Below are positions 43,313 through 58,413 of a DNA stretch of 64,000 bases, piece after piece; within the stretch, counting starts at the first letter, position 1, and the number at the start of each line of letters is the position of its first letter. The DNA comes from Modestobacter italicus (GTDB lineage Bacteria > Actinomycetota > Actinomycetes > Mycobacteriales > Geodermatophilaceae). The stretch lies in contig NC_017955.1 of NCBI RefSeq assembly GCF_000306785.1, positions 744,001 to 808,000 of the forward strand. The letters run 5' to 3'. The notes under the pieces were generated by a model. The model was given only the letters and a program-made list of their open reading frames with translations. It searched no databases and was not told the DNA's origin. The translations under genes were made by a program, and so were the position numbers.

Positions 43313-44104
43313 GTGACCGGGACGTCGCAGGAGGTCGCCGACCGCACGGCGGGCGCCGTCCCGCCTGCAGCCGGCGGGGGGCCCGCCGCCCCGGGCGGTC
43401 GACCGGCGCCCGGTCGCCGGCCGCGCGCCGAGGGCGGCTCCGGGGGACCGTCCGGTGGCCTGGCCCGCGTGCTCGTGCCGGCGCTGCTCGGGTTGGTGGT
43501 CATCGGCCTCTGGTACCTGGTCAGCCTGGTCGTGCTGGAGCCCCGCCGGCAGTTCATCCTGCCGCCTCCGCACGAGGTGGTGCGGCAGGCGTTCCTGGAC
43601 GGCGACTCGTTCGTCGAGCTGCTGGGCCCGCTGGCCACCACCGCGCAGGTGGCGCTCACCGGGCTCGCGCTGGCCGCGGTGCTCGGCCTGCTGCTCGCCA
43701 TGCTGATGAGCCAGTCACGGTGGGTCGAGGCGGCCGTCTACCCCTACGCGGTCGCGCTGCAGAGCATCCCGATCCTCGCCCTGGTGCCGCTCATCGCGTT
43801 CGCGCTGGGCTACGGGTTCGGCAGCCGGCTGGTCGTCGTCGTCCTCATCTGCCTGTTCCCGATCATCACCAACACGCTGTTCGGGCTGCACTCGGCCAGC
43901 GAGGAGATGCACGACCTGTTCAGCCTGCACGGCGCCGGGCGGCTCGTCCGGCTGCGCAAGCTGCAGGTGCCGGCGGCGCTGCCGGCCACCTTCGCCGGGC
44001 TGCGGATCTCCGCCGGGATGGCGGTCGTCGGGTCGATCGTCGCGGACTTCTTCTTCCGCCAGGGGAAGCCCGGCATCGGCCTGCAGATCGACATCTACCG
44101 CTGA
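43313..44104 (+). pseudogene. ABC transporter permease (NrtB/SsuC/TauC type), C-terminus missing
   Basis: 263 residues, with GTG at 43313 five bases after GGAGG. The first 40 residues are Pro/Gly-rich. The helices and the loop SEEMHDLFSLHGAGRLVRLRKLQVPAALPATFAGLRI are those of anion/sulfonate-type BPD permeases. The protein stops right after KPGIGLQIDIYR, where relatives continue for about 40-50 residues. The next in-frame codons after the stop read FFASLLVSG, close to what the family shows in its last helix, so the gene looks interrupted or deleted at this point. The integrase lies 30 bases further on. No ATPase or binding protein remains nearby. Confidence 0.75.
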
Positions 44105-44134
44105 TTCTTCGCGTCTCTGCTGGTCAGCGGCTCG

Positions 44135-45253
44135 TCAGAGTCCCTTGGTCCGCAAGGAGTCCGCAGAAGCGCCCAGCGCGGCGGCCATGAGGTCGCCCGC
44201 TGCGGCGCGCGTGCGGTCCTCGGCCGTGGGCCAGAGGTGGGAGTAGACGCCGAGCGTGATCGTCGCCGAGGAGTGCCCGAGCGCGCGCTGCACGGTCACC
44301 ACATCGCATCCCGACGCGATGAGCCCGCTCGCGTAGAAGTGCCGCAGGTCGTGCAGCGTGTACCCGCCCAGCCCGGCCGCCTTGCGGACCTCCCGCCACT
44401 GGTGGCCCGCCGAGTTCCGGTTCAACGGCTGCCCGACATTGGCGATCATCCAGTCACCCTGCTGGGTTCCCGCTCGCTGCACGTGCCGAGCCAGCAGATC
44501 GACCAGCTCCGCCGGGACGTAGACCACCCGCTCGGAGCCGAACTTGGGCGCCACGAGCTCGGTTGTCGATCGGTTCTCGCCCTGCAGCTGCCGCCGGACG
44601 GCGATGGTCCGACGCAGGAAGTCGACGTCCTCCAGCCGCAGCCCGGCCGCCTCGCCCAACCGGAGCCCGGCGAAGGCGCAGACGGCGATGAACGGCCGGA
44701 ACCACGCCGGTGCGACGCTGAGTGCGCTCCCGACTTCCTCGATGGCGGGGATCGTCATGGCCGCCGACGCCTTGCGCGCCCGTGGCAGCGGCACGCCGGC
44801 CGACGGGTCCGACTTGATGATCCGGTCGACGACGGCGGCCCGCATCGCCATGTGGACATAGTTGTAGCGGGTCCGGATCGTGCTGGGGGCGAGCCCGGAC
44901 GCACGGCTACTCGCCGGCTGGGACATGACCTTGACCCACTGCTGCACATGGGAGGGACGGATCTGGCGCATCGGCACATCAGCGAACGTCACCGAGTCGG
45001 CCGCCTGCTGAGCGGCGAGCGTCGTGCCGCGCCCCCATACCTGTCGGCCGGACCACGCCTTGTACCAGACCTTGAAAGTGATCTTCCCCGCCGCCGGGTC
45101 GACATAGTCGCCGGTGACTATCGCCGCGGTCTGCTCATCGAGCCACCGCTGGGCGTCGACCTTTCGCTTGAAGTGGCGGGCGTGCTCCTTCCCGTTCTCG
45201 TCCCGGTATCGCGGCCGGTAGGTCCCGTCGGGTCTCTTCGCGATTGACGCCAC
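44135..45253 (-). CDS. int: Tyrosine site-specific integrase
   Basis: A 372-residue phage-type recombinase. The GTG start at 45253 is preceded by GGAGG. The N-terminal AP2-like arm-binding domain (SIAKRPDGTYRPRYRDENGKE) and the SAM-like core-binding domain (about 60-165) come first. The catalytic residues are R198 (FAGLRLGEA), the HDLRH block around 301-305, H327 (LGHSSA) and the nucleophile Y337 (LGVYSHLW). All are present, so it should be active. It sits at the element's left end, reading towards the chromosome junction. Confidence 0.93.
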   Translation of the reverse strand: MASIAKRPDGTYRPRYRDENGKEHARHFKRKVDAQRWLDEQTAAIVTGDYVDPAAGKITFKVWYKAWSGRQVWGRGTTLAAQQAADSVTFADVPMRQIRPSHVQQWVKVMSQPASSRASGLAPSTIRTRYNYVHMAMRAAVVDRIIKSDPSAGVPLPRARKASAAMTIPAIEEVGSALSVAPAWFRPFIAVCAFAGLRLGEAAGLRLEDVDFLRRTIAVRRQLQGENRSTTELVAPKFGSERVVYVPAELVDLLARHVQRAGTQQGDWMIANVGQPLNRNSAGHQWREVRKAAGLGGYTLHDLRHFYASGLIASGCDVVTVQRALGHSSATITLGVYSHLWPTAEDRTRAAAGDLMAAALGASADSLRTKGL

Positions 45254-45423: not shown

Positions 45424-48400
45424 TCATCGCCCGATGCCTGGACCAGCGGCGGTGCGCCGGGTGAGTGCCGCGAGGTCCTCGGGGCGCGGGAGGCGAACAC
45501 CCGGTTCGGGGGCAGTCGGCAGCGGGGCGGCCGATCGGTGTGAGGTCGGGTCGGCGTTCTGGTGTGCGCGCCAGGTGTCCCGCTCGTGGATGAGGCGGTC
45601 GGCCGGCTGGGTGAGGAGGGCCGGCTCGGCCGTCAGCCGCGCGATGCGCGCGCGGATGGCGGCCAGTTCGGTGCGGGTGGCGGCGATGTCCCGGTCGGTG
45701 TCGGACATGCGCTCCGCCGGGTCGAGGGTCCAGGCGAGGGGTCCGAAGCAGGCGAGCCGGTCCTCGTGCTGACGGCGGGCGTCGGCCACCGCCGCTCCGG
45801 CGTGCCGGTGGGTCTCCTGGGCGGTGGCTGCGGTCGCGCGCGACTCAGCGTGTTCCGGGTGGGCGTGTTCGGCGTGATGGCGGGCGTACTGGTCGAAAGC
45901 AGTCCACAGCTTCGGTAGGTCGTCGGCCCGGTCAGCCAGGCGCGCGATCTGCTGCAGGTCGGTGGGCATCCCAGGCAGGGAGGGCCGCCAGGCGTCCGCC
46001 CAGTCGACCAGCTGCTCGCCGGCCCGGTTCACCGCCCCCTGCCGAAGCCGGAGACGGCCGGGACCGTCGAGCACGACCTGCGCGGCCTGGCGGGCGGCGT
46101 CCCGCCCGGTATCCCAGTTGCCGAGCAGCGTGTCGCGGATCCGGTCGGTCCCGGCGGTGACGACCGCGCCGCCGGCGTCGGCCCGCGCCGTGGCGTGGCG
46201 GGCCTCGATTCCCGTCTGCCGATATGCCTCGGTGAGCGCGGCGGCCCGGTCGGCGTGGGCGGACTCGAGCGCGACGATCTCGCGCAGCGCGTCCCGGCGC
46301 GGCAGGTCGTGGGCGAGCCGGTCCAGGCAGCGCTGCTCGGCCGTCCACGCGGAGTGCAGGTCGGCGAGCGCCTGTTCCAGCGGTCGGGGCGTGGCGTAGC
46401 GGGTGGCCTCGGCGGCGGCCAGCCGGGCGGCATGCGCCGGGCCAAGATCGGCGCGGTCGCGGGCGAAGACCGCGAGCCACTGCTCCCGCGCCTCGGCGGG
46501 GTCGCCCGCGACGAGGTGGGCGGTATTGGCCTCCCTGCCCCGGGTCATCCCGACGTAGGCCGCGGCCGCGCCGGTGTCCTCGCCGACCACCAAATGGGCG
46601 GCGGTCACGGTGTCGCCTTGAGTGCCGTGCGCGGTGGTTGCGTAGGCCAGCTCCACGTGCGCGGTGACGTAGTCGGCGGGCAGCACCCGCGCCCCTGTCC
46701 CGGCGGGGGTGACGTGCGGTGTGCCGTCGGGGGTGACGAGCAACCCGCCGTCCCGGTCGACGGCGGTGACCGTCCACACGTCGCGGTTGGCGACCTGCAG
46801 GTGGCGGTCGTTGCGGCGGGTGGCGATCCGGTCGCCGACCCCGATCCGCTCTCCGGCCCCGGTGGCGACCACGCGCCGGTCGTCGACCCGGCCGTCGGTG
46901 ACGAGCCGGTCGCGGATGGCGGCGTTGAGGGCGGCGGCCTGCTCGCGGGTGGCGGCCACCACGGCCACACGCTCGCCCGCGGTGTAGCAGTCGGCCGCGC
47001 CGGCGGCGAGCGTCTCGCGCAGCGCCTGCGTGTCGGGGTGCATCCGGATCTGCCCGCGGGCCAGGAGCGCGTCGAACACCGCCCCGGGATTGGCGCCGGC
47101 GCGCATCGCCAGGGTCAGCTCGGCGTAGTCGGTATCCGGTGTCGTGGCACCGGTGGCGTCGGTGCGGGTGAAGCGGTGCACCCCGACCAGGGTCAGGTGC
47201 TCGGCCGGGTCGACCTGGGCCGCGGCGAGGTCGAGGACGCCACCGCGCCCGACCGCCGCAAGCTGGTGCCGGTCCCCGAGTAGGGCGAGGTGCACCCGCC
47301 ACTCGTCGGCGACCGTCAGGAGGGCCCGGGCGGTGTCCTGATCCAGCATCCCGGCCTCGTCCACGACGAGCAGGTCGCCGGCCCGCAGCCGCGCCCCCTC
47401 GGCCGGCCCGGCGTAGGCGCGACCGGTGACCGGGTCGGTGTGGCCGACGGCGAGGCGGGTCCACCCGCCGTCGGCGTTCCAGCGCCAGCCGTACTCGAAG
47501 GCCAGCCGGGCCGCCGATCCGGCGACCGCGCCGACCTCCGCGGCGGCGACCTTGGCCGCCTTCAGCGTCGGGGTGACGACCACCAGCCGACGGCCCTGCT
47601 GGTCGAGCAGGTTCCTGGTGGCGGCCAGCGTGGTCGTCTTGCCGGCGCCGGCCGCGCCCTCGATCACCACCAGGGACCGCGGGCCGGCCAGTGCGGCGAC
47701 CGCCGCGGCCTGCCCGGGATCCAGCCGCGCGGCACCGACTGCGACGTCGACGGGCGGTGTCGGGTCGGTGTCCGGGACGCCGGCCGGGCGCTCGGTGACC
47801 CGGGCGGCGAGGCGGGCGGCCAGCTCGGCCTCAACGGCGAGCACCGGCGCCGAGGTCCAGGCCCGGATGTGCTCGGGGACGCCGTCGCGGTCCAGCAGCG
47901 GCAGGCAGCGGTCCATCGCGCGGGCGGCGACATCTTCGGCCAGCTCGATCCGCGCCGCCGCCTGCACGACGACGCCCGCCGCGGCGATCAGCCGCTCCAC
48001 CTCGCCGCGGACGTCCGCGGCGTTCCACGCCGACCGGCCCGCCGCCAGCCGGGCCAACGCGCGCTGCACCAGCTCCTCTCGATCGAGTGCGCCGACCGGG
48101 ATGGGCGTCAGGTCCACGGGACCGGCCGGGCCGCGGTAGCCGAGCCCCGACAGCTGCCCCCGCCACCGCTCCTCGAGGGTCACCCCGGGCTGCGCCACCA
48201 CCTTGTCCGGGCGGCCGTCGGCCCAGGCGCGGGCGTCCCAGGCGCGGCGCAGCGCCGGGCCTGGCCGTTCGCCGGGGTGCGTGGTGGTCCATTCGGCTTC
48301 GTAGCGGTCCACATTCCGGGCGATCTGTGCGTTTCGCGCGCTGAATGGGCCGACGTAGTCGGCGAGCTCCTGTATTTCTCCAGTAGCGTCCTTCGTGTAG

Positions 48401-49065
48401 CCGTGCGCGGCGAACGCGGCGTTCAATTCCGGGTCACACGCCATCGCCGCGTGCCCGATCCCGTTGATCGCATTCAGCGAATCCCGGACACCGACGGTGT
48501 GCAGGCCCCGCCATTTCTCGGCGGCGAACACCCGGGCCAGCAGCTGCAGGTGCAGATGCCAGTGCGGATCGTTGGCGCGGGAGGTGTAGTGCCGCACGGT
48601 GGCCGCCTCCAGCACCTGCAGCGGCACCTGCACCTGCCCGCCGCGCGGGCCGAGCCTGGTGGTGGCGTGCTGCGAGAGCCAGCCGATGATCTGCTCGGCC
48701 GCGCGGTCCTGCGCCGCCTCGTACGCGGCGGCGATGTCCGGATGCAGTGCGGCGGCCAGCGACCAGGTCTTTGGGCCGTTGACGACCACCTCGACGAACC
48801 GCACCGCCCGGTCGTCGTCGCGCAGCTGCCCCCGCGGCTGGTCGGTGTTTGGGTCGCGGCCGGCAACCCAGGTCTCGTAGCCGTCGCCGGTCAGCGGGAC
48901 CAGTTCGGTCACGCGGGCGTCGGTGGCGGTGAAGCGGCGGGCGAAGCCGGTGCCCTCGGCCAGGTAGTAGTCATCGGCCCGACCCCGGTCGGCCTCCACA
49001 TAAGCGCGGGCGGCTGTCGGGTCGCCGACGTACACCTTCATTCCCCCGTGCATTTTCAACGCCAC
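45424..49065 (-). CDS. MobF-family conjugative relaxase with helicase domain
   Basis: A 1213-residue TrwC/TraA-type protein that nicks at oriT and unwinds plasmid DNA for transfer. GTG at 49065 is used; ATG at 49041 (MKVYVGDPTAAR) is an alternative. The relaxase domain (about 1-300) has the metal-binding HXHXH triad at H168, H170 and H172 (DPHWHLHLQ) and an N-terminal tyrosine-containing stretch. The RecD-like helicase half has Walker A EGAAGAGKTTTL near 470 and Walker B LLVVDEAGM near 572, and a late UvrD-like motif YVGMTRGREANTAH. The final 300 residues are helical. Conjugation coupling proteins are not in view. Confidence 0.92.
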   Translation of the reverse strand: MALKMHGGMKVYVGDPTAARAYVEADRGRADDYYLAEGTGFARRFTATDARVTELVPLTGDGYETWVAGRDPNTDQPRGQLRDDDRAVRFVEVVVNGPKTWSLAAALHPDIAAAYEAAQDRAAEQIIGWLSQHATTRLGPRGGQVQVPLQVLEAATVRHYTSRANDPHWHLHLQLLARVFAAEKWRGLHTVGVRDSLNAINGIGHAAMACDPELNAAFAAHGYTKDATGEIQELADYVGPFSARNAQIARNVDRYEAEWTTTHPGERPGPALRRAWDARAWADGRPDKVVAQPGVTLEERWRGQLSGLGYRGPAGPVDLTPIPVGALDREELVQRALARLAAGRSAWNAADVRGEVERLIAAAGVVVQAAARIELAEDVAARAMDRCLPLLDRDGVPEHIRAWTSAPVLAVEAELAARLAARVTERPAGVPDTDPTPPVDVAVGAARLDPGQAAAVAALAGPRSLVVIEGAAGAGKTTTLAATRNLLDQQGRRLVVVTPTLKAAKVAAAEVGAVAGSAARLAFEYGWRWNADGGWTRLAVGHTDPVTGRAYAGPAEGARLRAGDLLVVDEAGMLDQDTARALLTVADEWRVHLALLGDRHQLAAVGRGGVLDLAAAQVDPAEHLTLVGVHRFTRTDATGATTPDTDYAELTLAMRAGANPGAVFDALLARGQIRMHPDTQALRETLAAGAADCYTAGERVAVVAATREQAAALNAAIRDRLVTDGRVDDRRVVATGAGERIGVGDRIATRRNDRHLQVANRDVWTVTAVDRDGGLLVTPDGTPHVTPAGTGARVLPADYVTAHVELAYATTAHGTQGDTVTAAHLVVGEDTGAAAAYVGMTRGREANTAHLVAGDPAEAREQWLAVFARDRADLGPAHAARLAAAEATRYATPRPLEQALADLHSAWTAEQRCLDRLAHDLPRRDALREIVALESAHADRAAALTEAYRQTGIEARHATARADAGGAVVTAGTDRIRDTLLGNWDTGRDAARQAAQVVLDGPGRLRLRQGAVNRAGEQLVDWADAWRPSLPGMPTDLQQIARLADRADDLPKLWTAFDQYARHHAEHAHPEHAESRATAATAQETHRHAGAAVADARRQHEDRLACFGPLAWTLDPAERMSDTDRDIAATRTELAAIRARIARLTAEPALLTQPADRLIHERDTWRAHQNADPTSHRSAAPLPTAPEPGVRLPRPEDLAALTRRTAAGPGIGR

Positions 49066-49103
49066 CCAATAATGACCAACAGGTCACCCCTAGAAACGGC
49101 GAT

Positions 49104-49124
49104 GGGCCCCGCGAAACGGGGCCC
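49104..49124. terminator. Hairpin upstream of the relaxase gene
   Basis: Perfect 8-base arms GGGCCCCG and CGGGGCCC with a CGAAA loop lie in the 406-base gap between the relaxase start and the SQR start. The loop resembles a stable tetraloop. It may stop transcription entering from the SQR side. Confidence 0.55.
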
Positions 49125-49471
49125 GAACTACCCGTGAAGGTAGCATGCGTGCCGTTCTCTAGTGAAGGGATGACATTCCTTCAGCGAAGGGCTGAATGGC
49201 GGGGGTTGCAGTTGATTGCCATTGACTGCGAGACGGACCTTGATCGGAGTATCAAGTAGCGACGGCGGGATGCATTGACGCTGGATCGGGCGTATGCGGG
49301 CATGCGGCTGAAGCACCCGACTGTCAGGCCCGGACGCTGGACGATCTAACCCGACGCCATCGGGGCTTCGAGCTGGAAGGTCGAGTGATCGACCCTGACG
49401 GGGCAGTGACCGGGTCCCGCTCCTGCTGCGCACCCCGTTTGCGCCTCGCCACGAGGCGGTAGCGTCTGATC
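49125..49471. promoter_or_regulatory. Divergent promoter region with small inverted repeats
   Basis: This gene-free stretch lies between two divergent genes and is slightly AT-richer than its surroundings. It contains TTCAGC-GAAGG-GCTGAA (about 49180-49197) and CTTGAT-CGGAGT-ATCAAG (49239-49256). Either could be a regulator site or part of oriT, since the relaxase gene is adjacent. I see no gene in it. Confidence 0.4.
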
Positions 49472-50605
49472 GTGGCTGCACATGTTGTGATCCTGGGGGC
49501 CGGCTTCGGCGGGCTGGAGCTGTCGGCTCGGCTCGCCGAAGACCTCGCCGACGACGTTCGCGTCACGCTCATCGATCAGAACGACTCGTTCATCTTCGGA
49601 TTCGCCAAGCTCGACGTTATGTTCGGTAGGCGCGGTCCGGACGAGGTGCGCCTGTTCTACCGGGACATCGCCAAGCCAAATGTGCAGTTCCGGCAGGAGA
49701 CCGTTCTGTCGATCGACCCGCAGGCCCGGCGTGTCCGGACCGATCGGGCGACGTACGACGCCGACATTCTCGTCGTCGCGCTCGGAGCCGACCTCGATCC
49801 GGGCGCCACCCCTGGACTCGTGGAAGGCGGCCACGAGTTCTACTCCACACAAGGAGCCGAAAGCGTCGCGAACGTGCTGCCGTCCTTCCAGGCCGGCGTC
49901 GCCGTCATCGGGGTACTGGGCCCGGTCTTCAAGTGCCCGCCGGCACCCAATGAGGCCGCGCTGATGCTCCATGACTACCTCAGTGAGCGGGGCGTGCGCG
50001 ACGCCGTCACCATCCACCTGGTCAACCCGCTCGGGTCGCCGATCCCGGTGTCAGAGGAAACCTCGGCGGCGATCGTGTCGATGCTCGCCGAGAGGGGCAT
50101 CGAGCACTGGCCGTCGTCCCAGGTTGAGCGTCTCGACCCTGCAGCCAAGGTGGCCCACCTCGCCGACGGCCGCAGGCTGCCCTTTGATCTCTTCCTGGCG
50201 GTCCCCGTACACCGCGCCCCCGCAGTCGTCCTCGATGCCGGCCTCACCGAGGACGGCTGGATCCCGGTGGACCCGGCCACCTTCGCGACCCGGTTCCCCG
50301 CCGTCTATGCGGTCGGGGACGTCACCAACGCTCCCGTCCCCCGAGCTGGGACCATCGCCGAAGGGGAGGCAGCGACACTCGCCGACGTACTGCTCGCCAC
50401 GCTCAAGGGGAGGCCCCAACCGCCGCCGTACAGCGGAGCGGCGGTCTGCTACATCGAGACCGGCGGCGGAACCGTCGCCAAGGTCGACGTCGACTTCCTG
50501 TCCGGAGCGGAGCCCACGGCAGTGTTCACCGCCCCGTCCGCCGAAGTCGCCGAGGAGAAGCGGCGCTTCGGATCAGTCCGTGCACAGCGATGGTTCGGCG
50601 ACTGA
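49472..50605 (+). CDS. Sulfide:quinone oxidoreductase-like FAD protein
   Basis: A 377-residue flavoprotein of the SQR/NDH-2 superfamily. The GTG start gives MAAHVVILGAGFGGLELSARLAEDL, the FAD dinucleotide-binding motif. A second motif, YDADILVVALGADLDPG, and the late FAD-contact FPAVYAVGDVTNAPVPRAG are clear. One cysteine lies in GPVFKCPPAP, close to where SQRs hold a catalytic Cys, while the other usual cysteine near residue 130 is not evident, so SQR activity is likely but not certain. It stands alone on the plus strand facing the sulfur operon. Reported SQRs feed electrons from sulfide to quinone and produce persulfide. Confidence 0.8.
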   Translation: MAAHVVILGAGFGGLELSARLAEDLADDVRVTLIDQNDSFIFGFAKLDVMFGRRGPDEVRLFYRDIAKPNVQFRQETVLSIDPQARRVRTDRATYDADILVVALGADLDPGATPGLVEGGHEFYSTQGAESVANVLPSFQAGVAVIGVLGPVFKCPPAPNEAALMLHDYLSERGVRDAVTIHLVNPLGSPIPVSEETSAAIVSMLAERGIEHWPSSQVERLDPAAKVAHLADGRRLPFDLFLAVPVHRAPAVVLDAGLTEDGWIPVDPATFATRFPAVYAVGDVTNAPVPRAGTIAEGEAATLADVLLATLKGRPQPPPYSGAAVCYIETGGGTVAKVDVDFLSGAEPTAVFTAPSAEVAEEKRRFGSVRAQRWFGD

Positions 50606-50768
50606 CGACCACCTACGCGGGCCGGCCGACGCAGACGATCGGTGCGGACACGCAGAAGGCGCCCGGCCGCGCTCCCCCCTGAAGAGAAACGGGGCAGAAC
50701 CGTCCCGGCGAACGACCGGGGCGAGCCGCCTCTGTTCGTGGGGTCCGGTTGGAGATCAGCGCCATGGT

Positions 50769-52211
50769 TCAGGTCGCGGTCAGGACGCCCATCATGCCGT
50801 CGTCCTCGTGATCGAGGACGTGGCAGTGGTACACGGTGCGGCCGGGGTAGCGGTCGAAGGCGATGCGCACCGTCACCTGGCCGCCCGGGGGGACGTTGAC
50901 GACGTCGCGCCACCTGACCTCGTCGAGCGGCTGACCGCCCTCGGCGATGACCTGCATGGGCCAGACGTGCAGGTGCACCGGATGGTCCATGGAGGAGGCG
51001 TTGGTCAGCTTCCACTCCTCCACGGTGCCCACCTGCACGGCTTGGTCGACCCGTGCGGGGTCGAACGCCTTGCCGTCGATGGTGAACTGCATTCCCCCGC
51101 CGCCCATGCCCATCGCGAAGATCAGTTCGCGCCGGCCGGCGACGGTCAGGCCGCGCAGGTCACGCGGAGCGGGCTGCGCTTCCAGGGGAGGCAGTGCGGC
51201 CACCGCGGCGCCCGCGACGTCCAGGGTCGCCAGGGCGATCGCTCCGCCGCCGGACGATGTCGAGCCGCCGCCCATCATGCCGCCCATCCCGCCGCGGTCG
51301 TAGGGCAGCGACTCCAGGACGCTGGACCCCGCAGTGGCGGTGACGAGCAGGTCGGCCCGGTTGCCGGTGGCCAGCACGATCTCGTCGACGTCGCGTGGTT
51401 CGGGGTAGCGGCCGGAGTCGACGCCGAGCAGCTGCAGCTGCTGCCCGTCCAGGCGCAGCCGCACGTAGCGGGACGAGCAGGCGTTGACGATCCGCCAGCG
51501 TTCCCGTTCGCCCGGGCGGGCGGTGAGCACCGGTCGCGACTGGCCGTTGACCAGGACCAGCTCCCCTTCCCGCCCGGCCATCCGCGCCATCGCCGGGGGC
51601 GCGGCGACCTGGCCGGACCCGTCCAGGGACAGGTCGGAGATCACCAGTACCCGCTCGCGGGTCACCGCCACCCGCTCGGGGTCGCCGACGACGATCGCGC
51701 CGTAGAGGCCACCGAAGACCTGGTCGGCGACCATGCCGTGGTGGTGCGGGTGGTACCAGTACACGCCGGGGGGATGGTCGGCGGGGAGCTGGTAGTCGTA
51801 GTCGAAGGACTCCCCCGGTTGCACGGCGATGAACACGTTGTCGCCGTTGTCCAGCGGCGAGACGTGCAGACCGTGCACGTGCAGGTTGGTCGGGTCGCCG
51901 AGGTCGTTGACCAGCCGCACCTGCAGCCGGTCACCGGGCTGCAAGTAGAGCGTCGGCCCGGGCAGGCCGCCGTTGTAGCTCAGCGTGGTGGCCTCCCGGC
52001 CGGCGACCCTGGTCGGCCCCTGGGCCGCTCGCAGGGTCACCCGGAGACGGCCGCCGCTGCTGCGAAGCACGTCCGGCTGGGTCAGCGCGCGCCCGGGCGC
52101 CGGTTCGAATCCGGCGGCCGACTGCCACGTCAAGCCGGCGCCCCCGACGACGGCGCTGAGCAGGCCCAGCCCGCCCAGTTGCAGGGCGCGGCGGCGGCTG
52201 ATCGGCTGCAC
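50769..52211 (-). CDS. Tat-exported multicopper oxidase
   Basis: A 480-residue protein with three cupredoxin domains. The GTG at 52211 overlaps the SHOCT gene's stop by one base and follows GGGAG. The signal SRRRALQLGGLGLLSAVVGG is a twin-arginine type. Copper ligands are visible: LHVHGLHV (HXHG), WYHPHHHG (HPHXHG), HPVHLHVW (HXXHXH) and YHCHVLDHEDDGMMG (HCHX3HX4M, the T1 site). A methionine-rich GGMGGMMGGG insert hints at copper or copper-like metal tolerance. It is the last gene of the leftward run and converges with the SQR gene. Confidence 0.92.
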   Translation of the reverse strand: MQPISRRRALQLGGLGLLSAVVGGAGLTWQSAAGFEPAPGRALTQPDVLRSSGGRLRVTLRAAQGPTRVAGREATTLSYNGGLPGPTLYLQPGDRLQVRLVNDLGDPTNLHVHGLHVSPLDNGDNVFIAVQPGESFDYDYQLPADHPPGVYWYHPHHHGMVADQVFGGLYGAIVVGDPERVAVTRERVLVISDLSLDGSGQVAAPPAMARMAGREGELVLVNGQSRPVLTARPGERERWRIVNACSSRYVRLRLDGQQLQLLGVDSGRYPEPRDVDEIVLATGNRADLLVTATAGSSVLESLPYDRGGMGGMMGGGSTSSGGGAIALATLDVAGAAVAALPPLEAQPAPRDLRGLTVAGRRELIFAMGMGGGGMQFTIDGKAFDPARVDQAVQVGTVEEWKLTNASSMDHPVHLHVWPMQVIAEGGQPLDEVRWRDVVNVPPGGQVTVRIAFDRYPGRTVYHCHVLDHEDDGMMGVLTAT

Positions 52212-52468
52212 TACTGGTTCTCCCCCAGTGCGGTCAGCCGCTCGCGGTACTCCTCGGTGGTCAGCTCGCCGCGGGCGTAGCGCTCGTCGAGCACGTTCCG
52301 GGCACGGCTCCGGCCCGGCCGCCCGCCCTCCGCGCGGGAAGTGTTCCCTTCCCGTCGGACGCTGCCGCCGACCGCCTTCACCGCGACGACGATCACCAGC
52401 ACGATCCCGACGAGCACCAGTAGCCAGAAGAGCCAGCCCCAGCCCATGCCCATGCCGTTCCCCATCAT
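52211..52468 (-). CDS. SHOCT-domain membrane protein
   Basis: An 85-residue protein. MMGNGMGMGWGWLFWLLVLVGIVLVIVVAVKAVGG gives a methionine-rich head and one transmembrane helix. The C-terminal SHOCT motif is NVLDERYARGELTTEEYRERLTAL. GAGGAG lies just before the start. The helix and tail suggest a small membrane accessory. It overlaps the oxidase start by one base (TAGTG), so the two genes are coupled. Confidence 0.87.
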   Translation of the reverse strand: MMGNGMGMGWGWLFWLLVLVGIVLVIVVAVKAVGGSVRREGNTSRAEGGRPGRSRARNVLDERYARGELTTEEYRERLTALGENQ

Positions 52469-52606
52469 GATGTCTCCTCGTCCTCATCGTCATGCTCGGC
52501 CACATGCGGGCAGGCGCCCGGTGCGGGGTGCCATCTCGCGGTCCGCGTCGCAACCGCCGTGGTGCGGCGCACGTCCCCCTGCTGCTCGCGCCGACGGTCG
52601 ATGGTC

Positions 52607-53389
52607 TCAACCGGCCGCGGACGGGTTGATCAGCGCCTGGACCAGGACGAACGCAGCGACGGCGAACACCAGGTAGGCGAACCAGCGGCGCAGCCGTTCC
52701 GCCGGCAGCCGGGAGGCCACCCGCGCCGAGGCCAGCGAGCCGACCACCGCAGCCGCAGTGAAGGCCAGCGCGATCCGGTAGTCCAGCGCGGCGTCCCCGG
52801 CGTGGGCGGCGAACCCGGCCAGGGAGTTGATCACGATGATGACCAGCGAGGTGCCGACCGCGACGGTCATCGGCAGGCCCAGGAGCAGCACCAGCGCGGG
52901 GATGATGAGGAATCCGCCGCCGACGCCGAACAGGCCGGTGAGGAACCCGACGACCACGCCGGAGCCGATGGCCTTGGGCAGGCAACCGCGCCAGTTGATG
53001 CCGCCACCGGGGAGTGCGCAGTCGCCGCCGACCGTGGTCTGCTCCCGCAGCATCCGCACGCCGGCGGCGACCATCATCGTGGCGAAGCCGACCAGGACGA
53101 CCCGCGGCTCCAGCAGCCGGTTGACCGCCGCGCCGGCGAAGGCTGCGCCGGCACCGGCTGCGCCGAAGACGGCCGCCAGACGCCACTGCACCTGGCCTTC
53201 GCGCAGTCGGGGAATCAGCGCCGTAGCCGAGGAGATTCCGACGACGACCAGGGACGTCGGCACTGCAGCTGCCAGCGGCATTCCCACGCCGTACACCAGC
53301 GCCGGAACGGCGAGGATGGAACCCCCGCCGCCGAGCAGTCCCAGCAGCATCCCGATGATGAGGCCCAGACCCAGCGCCGCGGCCATCAC
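52607..53389 (-). CDS. TauE/SafE family sulfite or sulfonate exporter
   Basis: A 260-residue membrane protein of eight helices. The start is GTG at 53389 or ATG at 53386. The duplicated motifs GLIIGMLLGLLGGGGSILAVPALV and GFLTGLFGVGGGFLIIPALVLLLG are diagnostic of TauE/SafE. Members export sulfite, thiosulfate or sulfoacetate. A pair of cysteines in the loop GGDCALPGGGINWRGCLPK is unusual. Next to the rhodaneses and the dioxygenase, it probably removes oxidised sulfur from the cell. Confidence 0.9.
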   Translation of the reverse strand: MMAAALGLGLIIGMLLGLLGGGGSILAVPALVYGVGMPLAAAVPTSLVVVGISSATALIPRLREGQVQWRLAAVFGAAGAGAAFAGAAVNRLLEPRVVLVGFATMMVAAGVRMLREQTTVGGDCALPGGGINWRGCLPKAIGSGVVVGFLTGLFGVGGGFLIIPALVLLLGLPMTVAVGTSLVIIVINSLAGFAAHAGDAALDYRIALAFTAAAVVGSLASARVASRLPAERLRRWFAYLVFAVAAFVLVQALINPSAAG

Positions 53390-53432
53390 CTCGTGTCCCG
53401 CAGTGTGGGCTCTCGTCCGCGCCGGCTGCCCA

Positions 53433-54020
53433 TCAGGCCGCCTGCTGCGCGCCCGGCAGCCGGCCGAGGATCTCGCCGGCGGTCAGCTCGCGCGGCCCGC
53501 GGTTGTAGGGCAGCACCGAGAGCAGGCGCGCCATCGTGCACGTGTCAGTCAGGGCGGAGGCGGTGAGCCCGGCGCCCACGCCGCCGGCGAGCAGGGAGGC
53601 CTTCGGGGCGCGCCAGGCGAGGGCGACCCCGGCCACGACGAGGGAGCCGGCGAGGAGGCGGACCTGCCGCTCCATCGGCCAGCGGGCCCGCCCACGCACG
53701 ACCTCGCCGCCGGCCGCGGCGTAGGCGCCGATGCCGCCGTCCAGGACGTGGACGTGGTCGGCGCCGACTCCCGCCAGCCGCTGCCGGGCCTCCGCGGCGC
53801 GGGCCCCGGAGGCGCAGACCAGCACGACCTGGCGGTCCAGCCGGGCGGCCAACTGATCGGCGTGCTCCCCGAGCAGGGTGAGTGGCACGTTGTAGGAGCC
53901 GGCGACATGAGCGGTCTCGAACTCCGCCGGGCTGCGGACGTCGATCACCGTGACGGCGTCGGGGTCGCGGATCCAGTCGATGACCGTGTGGGCGTCGAGG
54001 CGGTCAGGGGCGGGCGTCAT
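53433..54020 (-). CDS. Rhodanese with C-terminal DUF2892 membrane domain
   Basis: A 195-residue YgaP-like protein. The ATG follows AAGGACACCC. Residues 1-110 form a rhodanese with DVRSPAEFETAHVAGSYNVPL and the active loop VCASGARA, whose Cys carries the persulfide. The rest (about 120-175) is a DUF2892-like pair of hydrophobic helices (LLAGSLVVAGVALAW and LLAGGVGAGLTASAL). A Cys in TDTCTMARLLS is shared with the family. It could hand sulfur across or to the inner face of the membrane. Confidence 0.9.
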   Translation of the reverse strand: MTPAPDRLDAHTVIDWIRDPDAVTVIDVRSPAEFETAHVAGSYNVPLTLLGEHADQLAARLDRQVVLVCASGARAAEARQRLAGVGADHVHVLDGGIGAYAAAGGEVVRGRARWPMERQVRLLAGSLVVAGVALAWRAPKASLLAGGVGAGLTASALTDTCTMARLLSVLPYNRGPRELTAGEILGRLPGAQQAA

Positions 54021-54067
54021 GGGTGTCCTTCAAGAAGTGCGGCGACGTCGGGGCGGACGGTGGTGGT

Positions 54068-55453
54068 TCAGGCAGTGGGAGATCCGGCACCTTCGGTAGG
54101 GCGCTCGTCCTCGAGGCCGGCCTCGGCGGCGGCGCCGTACGAGTCGTTGATGAGGACGACCTGGCGGCCGGGGCGGTCCAGGACCGAGGCGGCGATGGAC
54201 GCCCGGTAGCCCGATCCGCAGTACACCCACACCTCGCCCTCGGGCACCTCGCCGATGCGGTCGTTGAGTTCGTGCAACGGGATGTGCTGGGAGTCGCGCA
54301 CGCCGCCCTGGGCACGCTCGTCGTCGCGGCGCGCGTCGAGGACCTGCACCGGCCCCTGGCGGACGGCTTCGGCGAGGCTGGCGAAGTCACTCACCTCGTA
54401 GGAGCGGAGCTGTGCCCCGTGGGCGAGGGTCTCGATGTTCCCGACTGCGGCACCAGCGAGCTCGTCGATGCCGATTCGAACCAGCTGCCGGCGCGCCTCG
54501 GCGACCTGCTCTTCGCTCTCGCCGATCAGGGTCAGCGGCGCACCCCACCGGTAGAGCCAGCCGAGGTAGGTGACGAAGTTGTCGCCCAGCTCGAAGTTCA
54601 GCGAGTCGGTCAGGTGTCCGGCCGCGAAGGCGGTGCGCTCGCGCAGGTCGACCACCCACTCACCGGCCTCGATCCGCCGGCGCAGCTCCGCCGGGTCGAC
54701 GAGCTGGGGCAGGGACAGGTCCACCGGCCGGGGGCCCTGCCGATTGATCGGCCCCATGTGGGCGTAGTAGGCGGGAAAGGCGTCCAGCCCGGCCAGCAGG
54801 GTGTCGACGTAGTCCTGCTCGGCCGACGTCAGGGCGGGGTTGACGCGCCTCTGCTCGCCGACGGTGGACGCCGTTCCGCTGGTGGGCGTGGCCGAGCAGA
54901 AGCTGCCGAACCCGTGGGTGGGAAAGACTCCGGTTTCCGCGGGGAGTTCGCGGGCGAGCCGCTGCACCGAGTGGTACTGCGCGTGGGTCAGGCCCACGGT
55001 GTCCTCGGGGCTGACCAGGTCGGTTCGTCCGGTGGAGCCGTAGAGCATCGAACCGCCGGTGAACACGGCCTCGACGTCTCCGTCGGCGTTCTCCAGTGCG
55101 TAGCTCATGTGGTGGTGGGTGTGTCCGGGGGTGTGCAGTGCCCGCAGCCGCATCCGACCGGCCTGGAACTCCTCGCCGTCGCCGGCCGGCAGGTGGTCGA
55201 ACTCTGCGCCGCTGTCGGCGGGCACCACGTAGGCGGCACCGGTGCGCTGGGCCAGCTCCAGCCCGCCGGTGACGTAGTCGTTGTGGATGTGAGTCTCCAG
55301 GACGTGGGTCACTCGGACTCCGCGCTTGTCGACCAGGTCCAGGACCCGGTCAATGTCCCGCTGGGGGTCGACCACGACGGCGATTTCGCCGTCACTGGCC
55401 AGGTAGCTGCGGTCGCCGAGGCTGGATGTCTCGATCGTCTCGATCTGGATCAT
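54068..55453 (-). CDS. Metallo-beta-lactamase/rhodanese fusion (persulfide dioxygenase-like)
   Basis: A 461-residue protein. ATG at 55453 is preferred over 55474 since GAAGGA lies 6-7 bases upstream. Residues 1-240 form an ETHE1/CstB-type metallohydrolase with the metal motif THIHNDYVTGG, then TPGHTHHHMSY and a later FPTHGFGSF. Two rhodanese domains follow: the first (about 250-345) has no Cys in its loop (PLTLIGESEEQ), and the second (about 360-450) has the active loop YCGSGYRAS. Such fusions oxidise persulfide to sulfite and pass sulfur on. It is flanked by rhodaneses in an apparent operon. Confidence 0.88.
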   Translation of the reverse strand: MIQIETIETSSLGDRSYLASDGEIAVVVDPQRDIDRVLDLVDKRGVRVTHVLETHIHNDYVTGGLELAQRTGAAYVVPADSGAEFDHLPAGDGEEFQAGRMRLRALHTPGHTHHHMSYALENADGDVEAVFTGGSMLYGSTGRTDLVSPEDTVGLTHAQYHSVQRLARELPAETGVFPTHGFGSFCSATPTSGTASTVGEQRRVNPALTSAEQDYVDTLLAGLDAFPAYYAHMGPINRQGPRPVDLSLPQLVDPAELRRRIEAGEWVVDLRERTAFAAGHLTDSLNFELGDNFVTYLGWLYRWGAPLTLIGESEEQVAEARRQLVRIGIDELAGAAVGNIETLAHGAQLRSYEVSDFASLAEAVRQGPVQVLDARRDDERAQGGVRDSQHIPLHELNDRIGEVPEGEVWVYCGSGYRASIAASVLDRPGRQVVLINDSYGAAAEAGLEDERPTEGAGSPTA

Positions 55454-55510
55454 GGGTTGTCCTTCCGTAGGCATGTGCTGCGCGCTGGGTGATGGAGGTC
55501 GAGTGGTGGC

Positions 55511-55828
55511 TCAGGCGACGTGTCCGGGGGCCCCCTCGGGCGTGGTGACCGGCAGGCCGGCCTTCGCCCAGGCGGTCATGCCCCCGTCCATGACCTCGGC
55601 GGTCCACCCGGACCCACCGAGGAGCTCGGCGGCCTTGCCTGCGCGACCGCCGCTACGACAAACGGTGACGACGGTCCGGTCCCGGTCGAGCTCGCCGAGG
55701 CGGGCCGGAAGCTGGCTCAGGGGAATGTGCGTCGCGCCGTCGATACGCCCGGCGCTCCACTCGTCGTCCTCTCGGACGTCGAGCAGTTGCACCTGATCAC
55801 GACGGCTGTTGACGGTCTTCGAATCCAC
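55511..55828 (-). CDS. Single-domain rhodanese
   Basis: A 105-residue sulfurtransferase. The GTG at 55828 follows GAGGAG by 6 bases; the longer frame upstream is not used. LLDVREDDEWSAGRIDGATHIPLSQLP leads to the active loop VTVCRSGGRAGKA. It is a minimal GlpE-like domain that moves sulfane sulfur. It lies 57 bases upstream of the fusion gene. Confidence 0.88.
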   Translation of the reverse strand: MDSKTVNSRRDQVQLLDVREDDEWSAGRIDGATHIPLSQLPARLGELDRDRTVVTVCRSGGRAGKAAELLGGSGWTAEVMDGGMTAWAKAGLPVTTPEGAPGHVA

Positions 55829-56103
55829 GTTGACTCCTCTTTCAGTTGCGGGGGGCTTGCCGGGAGGGGTGCCGCAGGGCCAGACCAGGGAGCGGAACAA
55901 TCGCTCCGGTTCAGCCCCTCGAGCTGGCGTGTGCCGGCGTCCTCGTCGACCACGCACTGCCGCAGGCCGAGGGCTGTGATCTTGGAACTGGCGCAGTCGA
56001 GCGCGGGGTGTCCGCCAACGCCTCGACGAAGCCGGAAGGCGCGGGCGATGATCATGGCGCCGGCGCGGTCCGGCGGTCCGGCGGGCTTCACCGGACCGGC
56101 CAG

Positions 56104-56274
56104 TCACCGGCGGGAGAACAGGCGCGCGACCCAGCCCGTCGGCGCGGACCCGTCGTCGTGGTGACCGCGGCAACGTTGGTTGGTGGCCACGCCCCGCATG
56201 ACCTGATCCACGTGCTGGCCGCAGCCGGCCCACGTGGTCTTGCCGCAGGTCCGGCACGCGACTGCTCTACACAT
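56104..56274 (-). CDS. Small cysteine-rich protein (56 residues)
   Basis: Read by eye: ATG at 56274, stop at 56104-56106. The protein begins MCRAVACRTCGKTTWAGCG, then QHVDQVMRGVATNQRCRGHHDDG, and ends LFSRR. It has five cysteines and several histidines: a CRTC pair, a GCGQH block and a later CRGHH, arranged like a small zinc or metal ribbon. Similar small proteins are common in actinobacteria; I do not know their function. Its start overlaps the stop of the upstream triple-rhodanese gene by 8 bases, so it is translationally coupled to the sulfur operon. Confidence 0.75.
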   Translation of the reverse strand: MCRAVACRTCGKTTWAGCGQHVDQVMRGVATNQRCRGHHDDGSAPTGWVARLFSRR

Positions 56275-57331
56275 GAGTGGCGTCTACCTCCATAGTCCGG
56301 TCGTCTGGGCGTGGCGGTGTGTGGAGCCCGAGGGCGGCGGCGCCGGTCTCCGGGTCGTCGTAGGGCCCGTCCACGAGGATCGGGTGGTACCCGGCGCGGG
56401 CGAGGATGGAGGCGGCGATCGATGCGCGGTAGCCCGATCCGCTGTAGACCCAGACCTCAGGCTGGGGCACGCGGCCGAGGCGGACCCGCAGATGGTCGAC
56501 AGGCACGTGCAGGGAGTCGCGTACGCCACCGGCGGCGCGCTCGTCGGCTCGGCGGACATCGAGGACGTTGGGCGTCCCGGCCGCCATGGCCTGCGCGAGT
56601 CCGGCGAAGTCGGTGACCGGATAGGAGGCCACGGGGCGTCCGCCGGTGAGCTCCTCGGGGCGGCCGATCGCGGCTCCGTTGATTCGGTGGATACCGACGC
56701 GCATCAGTCGGCGGCGGGCGTCGGCGATCTGTGCCCGGGCGTCGGCGATGAGGGTCAGTGGCGAGCCCAGGTCGTAGAGCCGGCCCAGGTAGGTCGCGAA
56801 GTCGTCACCCAACTCGAAGTTGAGCGCGCCGGGCAGGTGGCCGGCGGCGAACGCGGTACGGGTGCGGATATCGACCACCCACTCGCGGACGAGAAGACGG
56901 CGGCCCAACTCGGCCGGATCGACGATGCGGGGTTTGGAGAGGTCGGCCGGGTCCGGCCCTTCGGCGCCGACATGCCCGGCCTTCCTTACCGAACGGGGCA
57001 GGGTATATAGATCAGAAAAGGGGGAGCCGATGGTCGGCCAGCCGGCGCTGACCCAGTCGTTCATGCCACCCGTCAGGTTGCTGACCATCAACCCGGCGAC
57101 GGTCAATATCTCTGCGGCCTGCTGGCTGCGCCGCCCGCTCTGGCAGACGACCACGATCGGCCGGCGAGGCTCCAACTCGTCGAGCCTGGCGGGCAGCTGA
57201 CCGAGCGGGATGTTGGTGCTGCCGGGGATGTGGCCGCGGGCGACCTCCTCCGGCTCGCGGACGTCGAGAACGGCCACGTTGTCGCGGACGATGCTCAGCT
57301 GGGCGGGGGTCACCTGTGGGACGAGATTCAT
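56267..57331 (-). CDS. Triple-rhodanese sulfurtransferase
   Basis: A 354-residue protein of three rhodanese domains. The first (about 1-105) is complete with VLDVREPEEVARGHIPGS and active loop VCQSGRRS. Domains two and three are clearly related to the two rhodanese domains of the fusion protein at 54068-55453: VDPAELGRRLLVREWVVDIRTRTAFAAGH and so on. In domain two the Cys loop is absent (PLTLIADARAQ), and in domain three the fusion protein's YCGSGYRAS has become YSGSGYRAS, losing the Cys. So only the first domain should be catalytic. It follows the repressor gene by 25 bases. Confidence 0.9.
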   Translation of the reverse strand: MNLVPQVTPAQLSIVRDNVAVLDVREPEEVARGHIPGSTNIPLGQLPARLDELEPRRPIVVVCQSGRRSQQAAEILTVAGLMVSNLTGGMNDWVSAGWPTIGSPFSDLYTLPRSVRKAGHVGAEGPDPADLSKPRIVDPAELGRRLLVREWVVDIRTRTAFAAGHLPGALNFELGDDFATYLGRLYDLGSPLTLIADARAQIADARRRLMRVGIHRINGAAIGRPEELTGGRPVASYPVTDFAGLAQAMAAGTPNVLDVRRADERAAGGVRDSLHVPVDHLRVRLGRVPQPEVWVYSGSGYRASIAASILARAGYHPILVDGPYDDPETGAAALGLHTPPRPDDRTMEVDATHV

Positions 57332-57356
57332 CGGGTCCTCTCGCAGGGGTCGGCGG

Positions 57357-57623
57357 TCAGGCCAGGGACAAGAACAGCCGCTCGAGTTCGCGCAGGTCGA
57401 GCTCGCGCGCCTTGCCGTCCTCGGAGGTGGAGCAGTAGCGCATCCCCGTGGAGACCACCGCGAAGCCGGCCTTGCTCAGCGCCTTGGACGCGGCGGCCAG
57501 CTGGGTAACCACGGCCGAGCAGTCCCGCCCGTCCTCGATCATGCGGACGATGCCGCCGATCTGGCCCTCAACGCGCTTGAGGCGCTTGATCACGTCGGCG
57601 AGCTCGCTCTGGGGGATGTCCAC
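57357..57623 (-). CDS. CsoR/CstR-family repressor, CstR-like
   Basis: An 88-residue all-helical regulator (DUF156). The GTG at 57623 has AGGG 8 bases upstream. KRLKRVEGQIGGIVRMIEDGRDCSAVVTQL starts the family core. The conserved cysteines are C35 (RDCSAV) and C64 (MRYCST). The copper ligand His of CsoR, four residues before the second Cys, is Gly60 here, so copper sensing is unlikely and persulfide sensing by a Cys pair, as in CstR, fits. It is the first gene of the sulfur operon and probably represses it via the operator just upstream. Confidence 0.9.
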   Translation of the reverse strand: MDIPQSELADVIKRLKRVEGQIGGIVRMIEDGRDCSAVVTQLAAASKALSKAGFAVVSTGMRYCSTSEDGKARELDLRELERLFLSLA

Positions 57624-57636
57624 GTAGACAACCCTA

Positions 57637-57654
57637 GATACCCCAGGGGGTATC
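57637..57654. promoter_or_regulatory. CsoR/CstR-type operator
   Basis: GATACCCCAGGGGGTATC: perfect 8-base arms around a 2-base centre, 14 bases before the repressor start. This G-tract palindrome is the known CsoR/CstR operator type. It overlaps a plausible leftward -10 TATCTA, so the repressor would block its own promoter. Confidence 0.85.
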
Positions 57655-57924: not shown

Positions 57925-58413
57925 TCACTGGAGGTTCGGCTGGGGCCAGGGGACCAGCGGCGGCAGCCGGTCACCCGGGTGCGGGACTCCGTCAGGGACG
58001 TGGGTGATGCTGCGGGGTTCGTGGCTGCCGGCGGCGTGGGCGATCGCGGCGAGGACGAGGGTGAGGGCGTGGCGGTCGAGGCCGGTGGCGAGGTCGCCGA
58101 GGTCGACGGGGTGGCCGTCGGCGATGCTGGCGGCCGCCCGCAGGACCTGGTGGTCACTGCTCCTGCCGGTGATGGTGCCGATGCGAAGGGCCCCGTCGAG
58201 GTCTGGCCAGGCGATGTGGGCCCACAGTCCCTCGCCGTCGACGTTGCCGTCGAGGGTGATCAGCCCGGCGTGCTGCAGCTGGGGCAGCCAGTGGCCGGAG
58301 GTGATCAGCAGGAGGATCGCGGCCTCGTCGGAGTAGTCGCCGAGGGCGGCGCGCAGCAGGGCATTTTCCACGCCGACCGGGTCGAGGTCGGCGGCTCTGG
58401 GTTCGAAGATCAC
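57925..58413 (-). CDS. Hypothetical protein on the element
   Basis: A 162-residue soluble protein, start MIFEPRAADLDPVGVENALLRAALGDYSDEAA. It has an alpha/beta mixture, with LLLITSGHWLPQLQHAGLITLDG, then HIAWPDLDGALRIGTITGRSS, and a proline-rich end. I see no motif or family. Proteins of this kind occur on actinobacterial plasmids and integrative elements. It lies between the sulfur operon and the ParB-like gene, and its codon use looks like the rest of the element. Confidence 0.6.
   Translation of the reverse strand: MIFEPRAADLDPVGVENALLRAALGDYSDEAAILLLITSGHWLPQLQHAGLITLDGNVDGEGLWAHIAWPDLDGALRIGTITGRSSDHQVLRAAASIADGHPVDLGDLATGLDRHALTLVLAAIAHAAGSHEPRSITHVPDGVPHPGDRLPPLVPWPQPNLQ

Follow-up and report, generated by a model that had tools for sequence, protein, structure and literature searches.

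What is a cluster of rhodanese, persulfide dioxygenase (PDO) and copper oxidase genes doing inside an integrated element of Modestobacter italicus, and where did its parts come from? The cluster, called the island here, lies at about 49,472-57,653 of a stretch of 64,000 bases (the window, positions 744001-808000 of a single-contig genome of 5,575,517 bases) and is flanked by a TrwC relaxase gene on one side and by ParB/ArdC-like genes on the other. We conclude that it is most likely a persulfide-sensing detoxification operon that is carried as cargo in a variable slot of a TrwC-family integrated element. A first-pass annotation of the same DNA had listed these sulfur and copper genes as lying together between element genes and all of them are present, as judged by Pfam matches and open reading frames (ORFs). 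The listed gene for a flavoprotein resembling sulfide:quinone oxidoreductase (SQR) is also there, but it is on the opposite strand, converges on the leftward operon and stands outside it.

Repressor, operator and enzymes of the island

The leftward operon reads, in order, CstR-like repressor, 354-residue triple rhodanese, a 56-residue Cys-rich protein (Cys56), 105-residue rhodanese, 468-residue fusion of a metallo-beta-lactamase (MBL) domain to rhodanese, rhodanese with a YgaP-like domain, TauE, SHOCT protein and multicopper oxidase (MCO). By Pfam there are seven rhodanese stretches in four genes, namely, three in the 354-residue protein, one in the 105-residue protein, one in the 195-residue protein with the YgaP-like transmembrane domain and two in the 468-residue Lactamase_B fusion. 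ORFs were picked by G+C content at third codon positions, which is a heuristic, and start codons were refined by inspecting the upstream sequence. In the following list FCSD is flavocytochrome c sulfide dehydrogenase, Tat is twin-arginine translocation, and A-type and B-type are the two operon lineages described in the next section.

49472..50605, plus strand: SQR/FCSD-like flavoprotein, Pyr_redox_2, with exactly two Cys (C155, C326)
50769..52211, minus strand: Tat-type MCO, three Cu-oxidase domains; its GTG start overlaps the SHOCT stop
52211..52468, minus strand: small membrane protein with C-terminal SHOCT (Pfam 2.2e-6), coupled to the oxidase
52607..53389, minus strand: TauE/SafE exporter, B-type, TauE 5e-49, 89% identical to Blastococcus L053 and L054
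53433..54020, minus strand: 195-residue rhodanese with YgaP-like membrane domain, B-type, loop CASGARA
54068..55474, minus strand: CstB-like MBL (PDO)-pseudorhodanese-rhodanese fusion, B-type, 468 residues, only Cys193 and Cys419
55511..55828, minus strand: 105-residue single-domain rhodanese, B-type, loop CRSGGRA, GTG start at 55828
55918..56004, minus strand: relic of a B-type CstR gene, 29 codons, tblastn E 9e-8, 55% identical
56104..56274, minus strand: Cys56, probably a zinc-knuckle miniprotein, as judged from the Cys/His pattern alone
56267..57331, minus strand: 354-residue triple-rhodanese fusion, A-type, MBL domain gone, Ser297, only Cys63 left
57357..57623, minus strand: CstR/ScCsoR-like repressor, A-type, Cys35 and Cys64, zero His, start best placed at GTG 57623
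57638..57653, minus strand: putative CstR operator ATACCCCCTGGGGTAT, 14 bases ahead of the repressor start

The repressor belongs to the CsoR family (Pfam Trns_repr_metal, 7e-22). Its Cys35 and Cys64 have a spacing of 29, matching Cys37 and Cys66 of ScCsoR, there is no His anywhere in the protein, and Gly is found at the position of the His in solved CsoRs. The Cys-His-Cys copper site is therefore absent from the island repressor whereas it is present in the two other CsoR homologues of the genome. Two conserved Cys without the copper-ligand His are what a CstR has, and so is the perfect G/C-rich palindromic operator, ATACCCCCTGGGGTAT, at the repressor promoter. The window holds a single exact copy of the 14-base core, TACCC-N4-GGGTA, which is 15 bases ahead of the repressor start. 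An excerpt of PMC7533328 gives ATACC-n6-GGTAT as the sequence bound by ScCsoR and states that its release by polysulfide requires both of its cysteines; the island operator is the same motif. With a spacer of 4 or 5 and at most one mismatch allowed, 60 of 65 non-duplicate CstR homologues have the motif within the 180 bases of their start region, 44 of them without a mismatch, as against 55 of 3000 random 180-base windows (homologues below 45% identity or with fewer than 150 upstream bases were excluded and 6 of 71 were removed as duplicates). The most likely explanation, from sequence, is that the island is a persulfide operon of the CstR/ScCsoR type. Thus the CstR-like control proposed in the first-pass annotation is supported by the His-free repressor with two Cys and the conserved operator, and its reactive-sulfur operon by the gene set that goes with them.

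The 468-residue protein matches 3r2u and 3tp9 end to end, with residues 28-446 aligned to 47-460 of 3r2u, which we take to be a staphylococcal CstB-like protein. It has the MBL-pseudorhodanese-rhodanese architecture of CstB with the active Cys419 in the last domain. The nearest solved relatives of the SQR-like protein include FCSD 3vrd and SQR. Its C155 and C326 align with Cys of 3vrd, presumably the redox cysteines of that enzyme, and it scored below the curated cut-offs for type III SQR (205 of 525 bits) and FCSD_central (18.5 of 27). Five mycobacterial loci (L082, L097, L101, L104, L105) have homologues at 53-54% identity close to CstR-TauE-PDO; of the other SQR matches the Klenkia copy is 96% identical and the rest are 25-27% identical. 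These matches, like the other counts below that are given out of 80 loci, come from the best 80 of at least 556 loci. Neither in the window, nor in the Klenkia comparison, nor in a motif search of the genome did the SQR gene show a CstR operator. Membership of SQR in the CstR regulon was considered and is not supported, and a one-mismatch site at 49129-49142 is altered further in Klenkia. The earlier idea that persulfide is made from sulfide is thus not supported as part of the same regulon.

The MCO scores about 330 bits against the Thermus laccases 6wcn/2xu9. It has His-rich motifs, three cupredoxin domains, copper-ligand motifs as judged by eye, and a Tat signal in the N-terminus, MQPISRRRALQLGG; it is below the curated cut-offs for CueO (184 of 525 bits) and CopA (139 of 479). 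Thirteen MCO matches were found in 12 of 108 family genomes, 5 of the 13 within 5 kb and 7 within 12 kb of a PDO-like place, these distances being measured to PDO-like places in 112 family genomes. The SHOCT gene adjoins the MCO gene in L184, L185, L186 and L188, and the pair stands at the end of similar operons in Blastococcus, Pseudonocardia, Actinomycetospora and Klenkia and in line with the operon in 5 of 80 loci. In L188 the pair occurs without the operon, and so it seems to be a module of its own that was added to these operons.

At an E cut-off of 0.01 neither Pfam nor NCBIfam has a match for Cys56. When the window copy was aligned with 33 of 34 distinct homologues, C2, C7, C10, C18, H21 and C35 proved invariant, and the homologue left out, in L033, is without C7. 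Among the 108 family genomes there are 45 matches in 33, and 39 of the 45 are within 5 kb of a PDO-like gene, for which reason we rejected the idea that Cys56 is an odd orphan. The AlphaFold model has a mean pLDDT of 72.5 and a pTM of 0.45, and Foldseek returned no PDB match for it at E <= 0.001; because of this the term zinc knuckle refers to the Cys/His pattern alone. An MCO together with a 56-residue protein had been called an unusual mix, but it is so only in part, as both recur with such operons.

These data suggest how the operon would work. Free CstR on the operator would shut the leftward operon, and persulfide or polysulfide would modify Cys35 and Cys64 so that CstR leaves the DNA. 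The rhodaneses would then move sulfane sulfur and the CstB-like PDO-rhodanese would convert persulfide and O2 to sulfite, while the membrane rhodanese would also be made and TauE would export sulfite or a related anion. SHOCT and the Tat-exported MCO would be an attached module, most likely handling Cu(I) outside the membrane. Gene content, operator, mosaic origin, fusion, cargo position and transfer between genera are read directly from the sequences; the effector, the enzyme activities, the export substrate, the roles of the oxidase and Cys56, and co-transcription through a 275-bp joint within the operon are what we infer from the sequences.

A mosaic of two operon lineages

Two kinds of operon are found among the relatives. 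The A-type operon, in relatives of the same genus and in Klenkia, is CstR-rhodanese-MBL-rhodanese-Cys56-YgaP-TauE, with single members missing in some loci. The B-type operon is CstR-rhodanese-MBL-rhodanese-YgaP-TauE-SHOCT-MCO and is complete in Blastococcus sp. CT_GayMR16 (L053, the same as L184), whose proteins, in that order, are 66, 74, 80, 75, 89, 73 and 85% identical to those of the window. L041 (G003) has CstR, rhodanese, PDO and YgaP in one line (62, 78, 80 and 77%), with SHOCT-MCO on the other strand and a TauE that is only 42% identical. The window CstR shares 85-90% identity with that of six A loci and 75-78% with that of another six, against only 62-66% with the B repressors in L041 and L053; the six proteins downstream of the joint, by contrast, are 73-89% identical to L053. 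A tree of the C-terminal half of PDO (60 rows, a quick method with SH-aLRT support only; L050 and L060 excluded as duplicates, and above L082 only L085 and L121 included) places the 468-residue protein within a B clade of 13 rows (98) and the 354-residue fusion with its Klenkia copy (stem 0.77) within an A clade of 16 rows (99).

The joint itself is the 275 bases between Cys56 and the 105-residue rhodanese and it holds a relic of 29 residues from the C-terminal part of a B-type CstR, 55% identical to that of L041 (E 9e-8; none of 200 base shuffles reached 1e-4). Judged from these sequences, an A-type operon gave the island operon its head (repressor, rhodanese and Cys56) and a B-type operon the remainder, and the relic marks the joint. 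The B repressor is lost except for the 29-codon relic and therefore the A repressor stands before the B enzymes.

The 354-residue protein is part of the same history. Its first 102 residues or so match A-type rhodaneses, and from about residue 107 onward it matches the A-type PDO from the inter-domain linker. The two corresponding points are about 750 bases apart in L030 and about 36 in the island, and by arithmetic this is therefore an in-frame loss of about 0.7 kb. By this deletion the A-type PDO lost its MBL domain, and what is left of it is in the triple-rhodanese fusion. Of the rhodaneses in the first-pass annotation, one is thus fused in frame and takes in the C-terminal half of a PDO-rhodanese. 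The third domain has Ser at position 297; Cys stands there in 119 of 120 matches from the relatives' loci, all but the Klenkia fusion, and Cys63 is the one Cys in 354 residues. Full-length matches were found only in the own genome and in Klenkia terrae, which are 2 of 112 family genomes (at most 18 candidates scored per genome) and the same 2 of 397 order genomes (5 per genome).

The element and its cargo slot

The features of the element around the island are as follows.

44135..45253, minus strand: phage-type (tyrosine) integrase, Pfam Phage_integrase 2.9e-22
45424..49065, minus strand: TrwC-family relaxase/helicase, Pfam TrwC 1.3e-49
57925..58413, minus strand: hypothetical element gene of 162 residues, no Pfam match; homologues at 93% and 84% beside ParB and ArdC in L166 and L170
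58680..60461, minus strand: ParB-like element gene, ParB_N just below the cut-off at 25.3 of 26.3 bits
60391..61827, minus strand: ArdC-like antirestriction element gene, ArdcN

An integrase, a relaxase and a variable cargo slot are the marks of an integrative mobilizable or conjugative element and all three are found here. TrwC matches at E <= 1e-100 are in 47 of 108 family genomes, and partial or full matches to the integrase at 78-96% are beside TrwC in L148, L164, L165, L166 and L172. Among 15 TrwC loci, six have ArdC-like sequence across the slot from TrwC (L165, L166, L168-L171) and, of these, L166 and L170 also hold the 162-residue gene and ParB. The other cargo in the slot, from a domain scan that took in 10 of the listed cargo ORFs, is a GGDEF-EAL protein in L166, ArsR, DUF326, DUF305 and TetR in L170, and TerC and a Na/H antiporter in L168. 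The genome sets behind these different counts share members, and several of the named loci lie on contigs that also appear among the unnamed loci.

The comparison with Klenkia terrae IHUMI-26.3 (L085) is the most direct. Every 250-base bin of 49,500-57,250 is 91-100% identical, whereas the TrwC bins are 64-79% identical at 45,500-48,000 and 82-87% at 48,250-49,250; chromosomal neighbours are 81, 83 and 90% identical and GroEL alone 92%. The synonymous divergence (dS) is 0.02-0.10 for eight island genes, 0.20 for GroEL and 0.51 for TrwC. Since the island is 91-100% identical and most relaxase bins are 64-79% identical, the island travels as cargo, and by this comparison it has passed between genera. 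The proposal that it is cargo of an integrated element is supported: the same cargo is beside a diverged relaxase in Klenkia terrae and the slot holds different cargo elsewhere. Matches to the PDO were also found in 648 plasmid records, of which 173 cover 80% of the query and 37 are at 60-80% identity; the PDO place of pRHL3 is without SHOCT and MCO.

Some further observations concern the element. A second TrwC element of the own genome (L174, G000:C1:5166000-5185999) has at 13445-13603 a TauE remnant of 159 bases that is 90.6% identical to the island TauE. The left end of the element is near 44,075-44,135, and there the integrase end (44075-44135) meets a gene for an ABC permease at its 3' end. 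A similar end in G006 (L146, about 1501) abuts a gene ending in ALQFDNYR, which we take to be yajQ, and the two gene ends resemble each other. In L033 (G003) 150 bases at 7484-7633 that are similar to the integrase 3' end lie just past the TauE gene of an A-type operon and are perhaps an old element scar. A RES-domain protein (L134, 1913-2476), of a toxin-like family, is just past the likely right end of the element.

Competing explanations and known systems

Several observations weigh against a persulfide operon that travels as cargo. The count of operators is one: the window has 2 core sites at up to one mismatch and 8 of 100 shuffles have at least 2, and in the genome the 16-base form is at one place at up to one mismatch, the island promoter, and a reversed control pattern is likewise at one. 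Because shuffles and the reversed control reach similar counts, the number of sites proves little and it is position and conservation that carry the argument. The fusion evolves fast: the ratio of nonsynonymous to synonymous substitution (dN/dS) between its two copies is 0.48 as against 0.10 for the PDO, although it is equally high for the 105-residue rhodanese (0.52, 5 changes) and SHOCT (0.49, 9 changes), which are short genes with few changes. The dS is higher for CstR (0.16) and Cys56 (0.30) and bin 57,500 is only 88% identical, so that the right edge of the island may have a different history, or this may be noise in short genes. A right attachment site was not found when the left core was searched for in 58-110 kb; there were two 22-of-30 matches (85,580 and 91,556), and neither was credited because a 43-kb null gave one. 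TrwC is near the relatives' operons in 0 of 20 loci and in 2 of 80, one of them Klenkia, an absence that is local only because these loci are at most about 21 kb long. The first-pass annotation had held that a chromosomal block unlinked to mobile elements in relatives would speak against it. Most of the relatives' operon cores do have no such relaxase nearby, but both genomes found to have all of the island have it next to one, and a plasmid of Pseudonocardia carries a very similar operon.

The last of these points is the iron site of the PDO. The iron ligands of ETHE1 are His79, His135 and Asp154 (excerpt of PMC4383860). In the 468-residue protein the two His are kept, but Gly141 is at the place of the Asp. 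Gly is at this place in all 102 matches of at least 45% identity in the relatives' loci, and below 45% there are 14 with Asp and 2 with Gly. His122 is found in every one of 100 distinct Gly-type rows, and 14 distinct Asp-type rows have Ser there; we do not claim it as a replacement ligand because 3tp9 has both His and Asp. We considered that Gly141 means loss of dioxygenase activity, and this is weakened by SCO0618: its guide-RNA target as printed in the excerpt of PMC7533328 reads TGGSLL, the Gly-type PDO motif, in one frame, which is our own choice of frame. This suggests that active ScPDO shares the Gly type, as judged only from the guide-RNA target. In the mycobacterial loci L068, L069, L070, L074 and L075 a Gly-type and an Asp-type MBL-rhodanese are both present, and a distant SQR, at 25-27% identity, lies between the two or next to them.

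If the operon were instead a copper response, the repressor would sense Cu(I), MCO and SHOCT would be the point of it and the sulfur genes would be accessory. The CsoR family of the repressor, with RicR as its best curated sub-model (45.6 of 175 bits), the relationship of the MCO to CueO and laccase, and the DUF326 protein and ArsR regulator in a related element slot would fit this. But an MCO of this kind is missing from most of the related operons, and a repressor without any His and two Cys-His-Cys CsoR homologues elsewhere in the genome led us to reject copper as the main interpretation, and we regard it as highly improbable. Only a little less improbable is that the set gains energy or sulfur from sulfide through SQR/FCSD and PDO and is not for detoxification: an SQR/FCSD-like gene with both redox cysteines adjoins the operon, as homologues do near CstR-TauE-PDO in the five mycobacterial loci, but SQR is outside the operon and without an operator, the exporter TauE is inside it and no Sox protein was found by Pfam among ten island proteins.

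It is also conceivable, though unlikely, that the joint is partly decayed, the A head being a relic, the fusion non-functional and the B enzymes poorly expressed or on another promoter. This would agree with a fusion that is without the MBL domain and one catalytic Cys and with the stem and dN/dS of the two fusion copies. Against such decay are an arrangement kept in two genera, in which the Klenkia genes align end to end (SHOCT only from residue 11), an operator and a CstR that are both kept, and the low dN/dS of the PDO. A persulfide-sensing operon remains our preferred explanation. A bolder extension of it, which we offer as rather doubtful, is that these actinobacterial operons are a distinct persulfide-handling system and more than copies of cst, in which the dioxygenase would work without the Asp ligand, perhaps with a three-His site, Cys56 would be a dedicated zinc-knuckle miniprotein for sulfur transfer or protection, the exported copper oxidase, anchored by SHOCT, would extend sulfur/copper oxidation across the membrane, modules would be swapped on elements and the fusion would be a new sulfur carrier with one cysteine that came out of such a swap.

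Among the open-access papers searched we found none combining persulfide dioxygenase, multicopper oxidase and operon, none joining multicopper oxidase with SHOCT, and none joining Geodermatophilaceae with rhodanese. The experimental precedent is the ScCsoR-ScPDO-rhodanese-TauE circuit of Streptomyces coelicolor (SCO0618-0621; excerpt of PMC7533328), which has the same four functions, the operator motif and a repressor with two Cys. To this the island adds one leftward run, extra rhodaneses, Cys56, SHOCT-MCO, the fusion, its position as mobile cargo, and SQR alongside. The cst operon of Staphylococcus aureus contains CstR, CstA, CstB, SQR and TauE. The island resembles it in CstR-type control, in the MBL-pseudorhodanese-rhodanese protein (3r2u), in TauE and in SQR nearby, but differs in that its PDO has Gly for the third iron ligand and in that no TusA-type CstA was found among the island proteins by Pfam; MCO and Cys56 are not known to be part of S. 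aureus cst.

Closer relatives share more of the order. On pPA12743CP of Pseudonocardia autotrophica (NZ_AP018921.1), a mobilizable MOBF plasmid, regulator, MBL-rhodanese, TauE, rhodanese, SHOCT and MCO run in one direction, but there is no triple-rhodanese fusion and no Cys56 is annotated. The Blastococcus operon (L053) is similar from CstR to MCO at 66-89% identity and differs in having an intact B repressor, no A head and no fusion. Klenkia terrae has the whole island, fusion and SQR included, at 89-99% protein identity, but its relaxase is 70% and its integrase 33% identical and the ParB/ArdC segment had no match in the 100 kb compared. The operon is of a known kind and the arrangement of the island is new. 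It points to a reactive-sulfur defence that has been rearranged and passed between actinobacteria, in which two operons were cut and joined and control was moved to the other repressor, with the product now in two genera, in a slot whose contents in other elements differ and include some genes for stress and metals. The comparison also indicates two gaps in a pathway that has been studied well: one is a conserved miniprotein rich in Cys that neither Pfam nor NCBIfam matches and that accompanies the dioxygenase, the other a clade of dioxygenases in which the textbook third iron ligand is missing.

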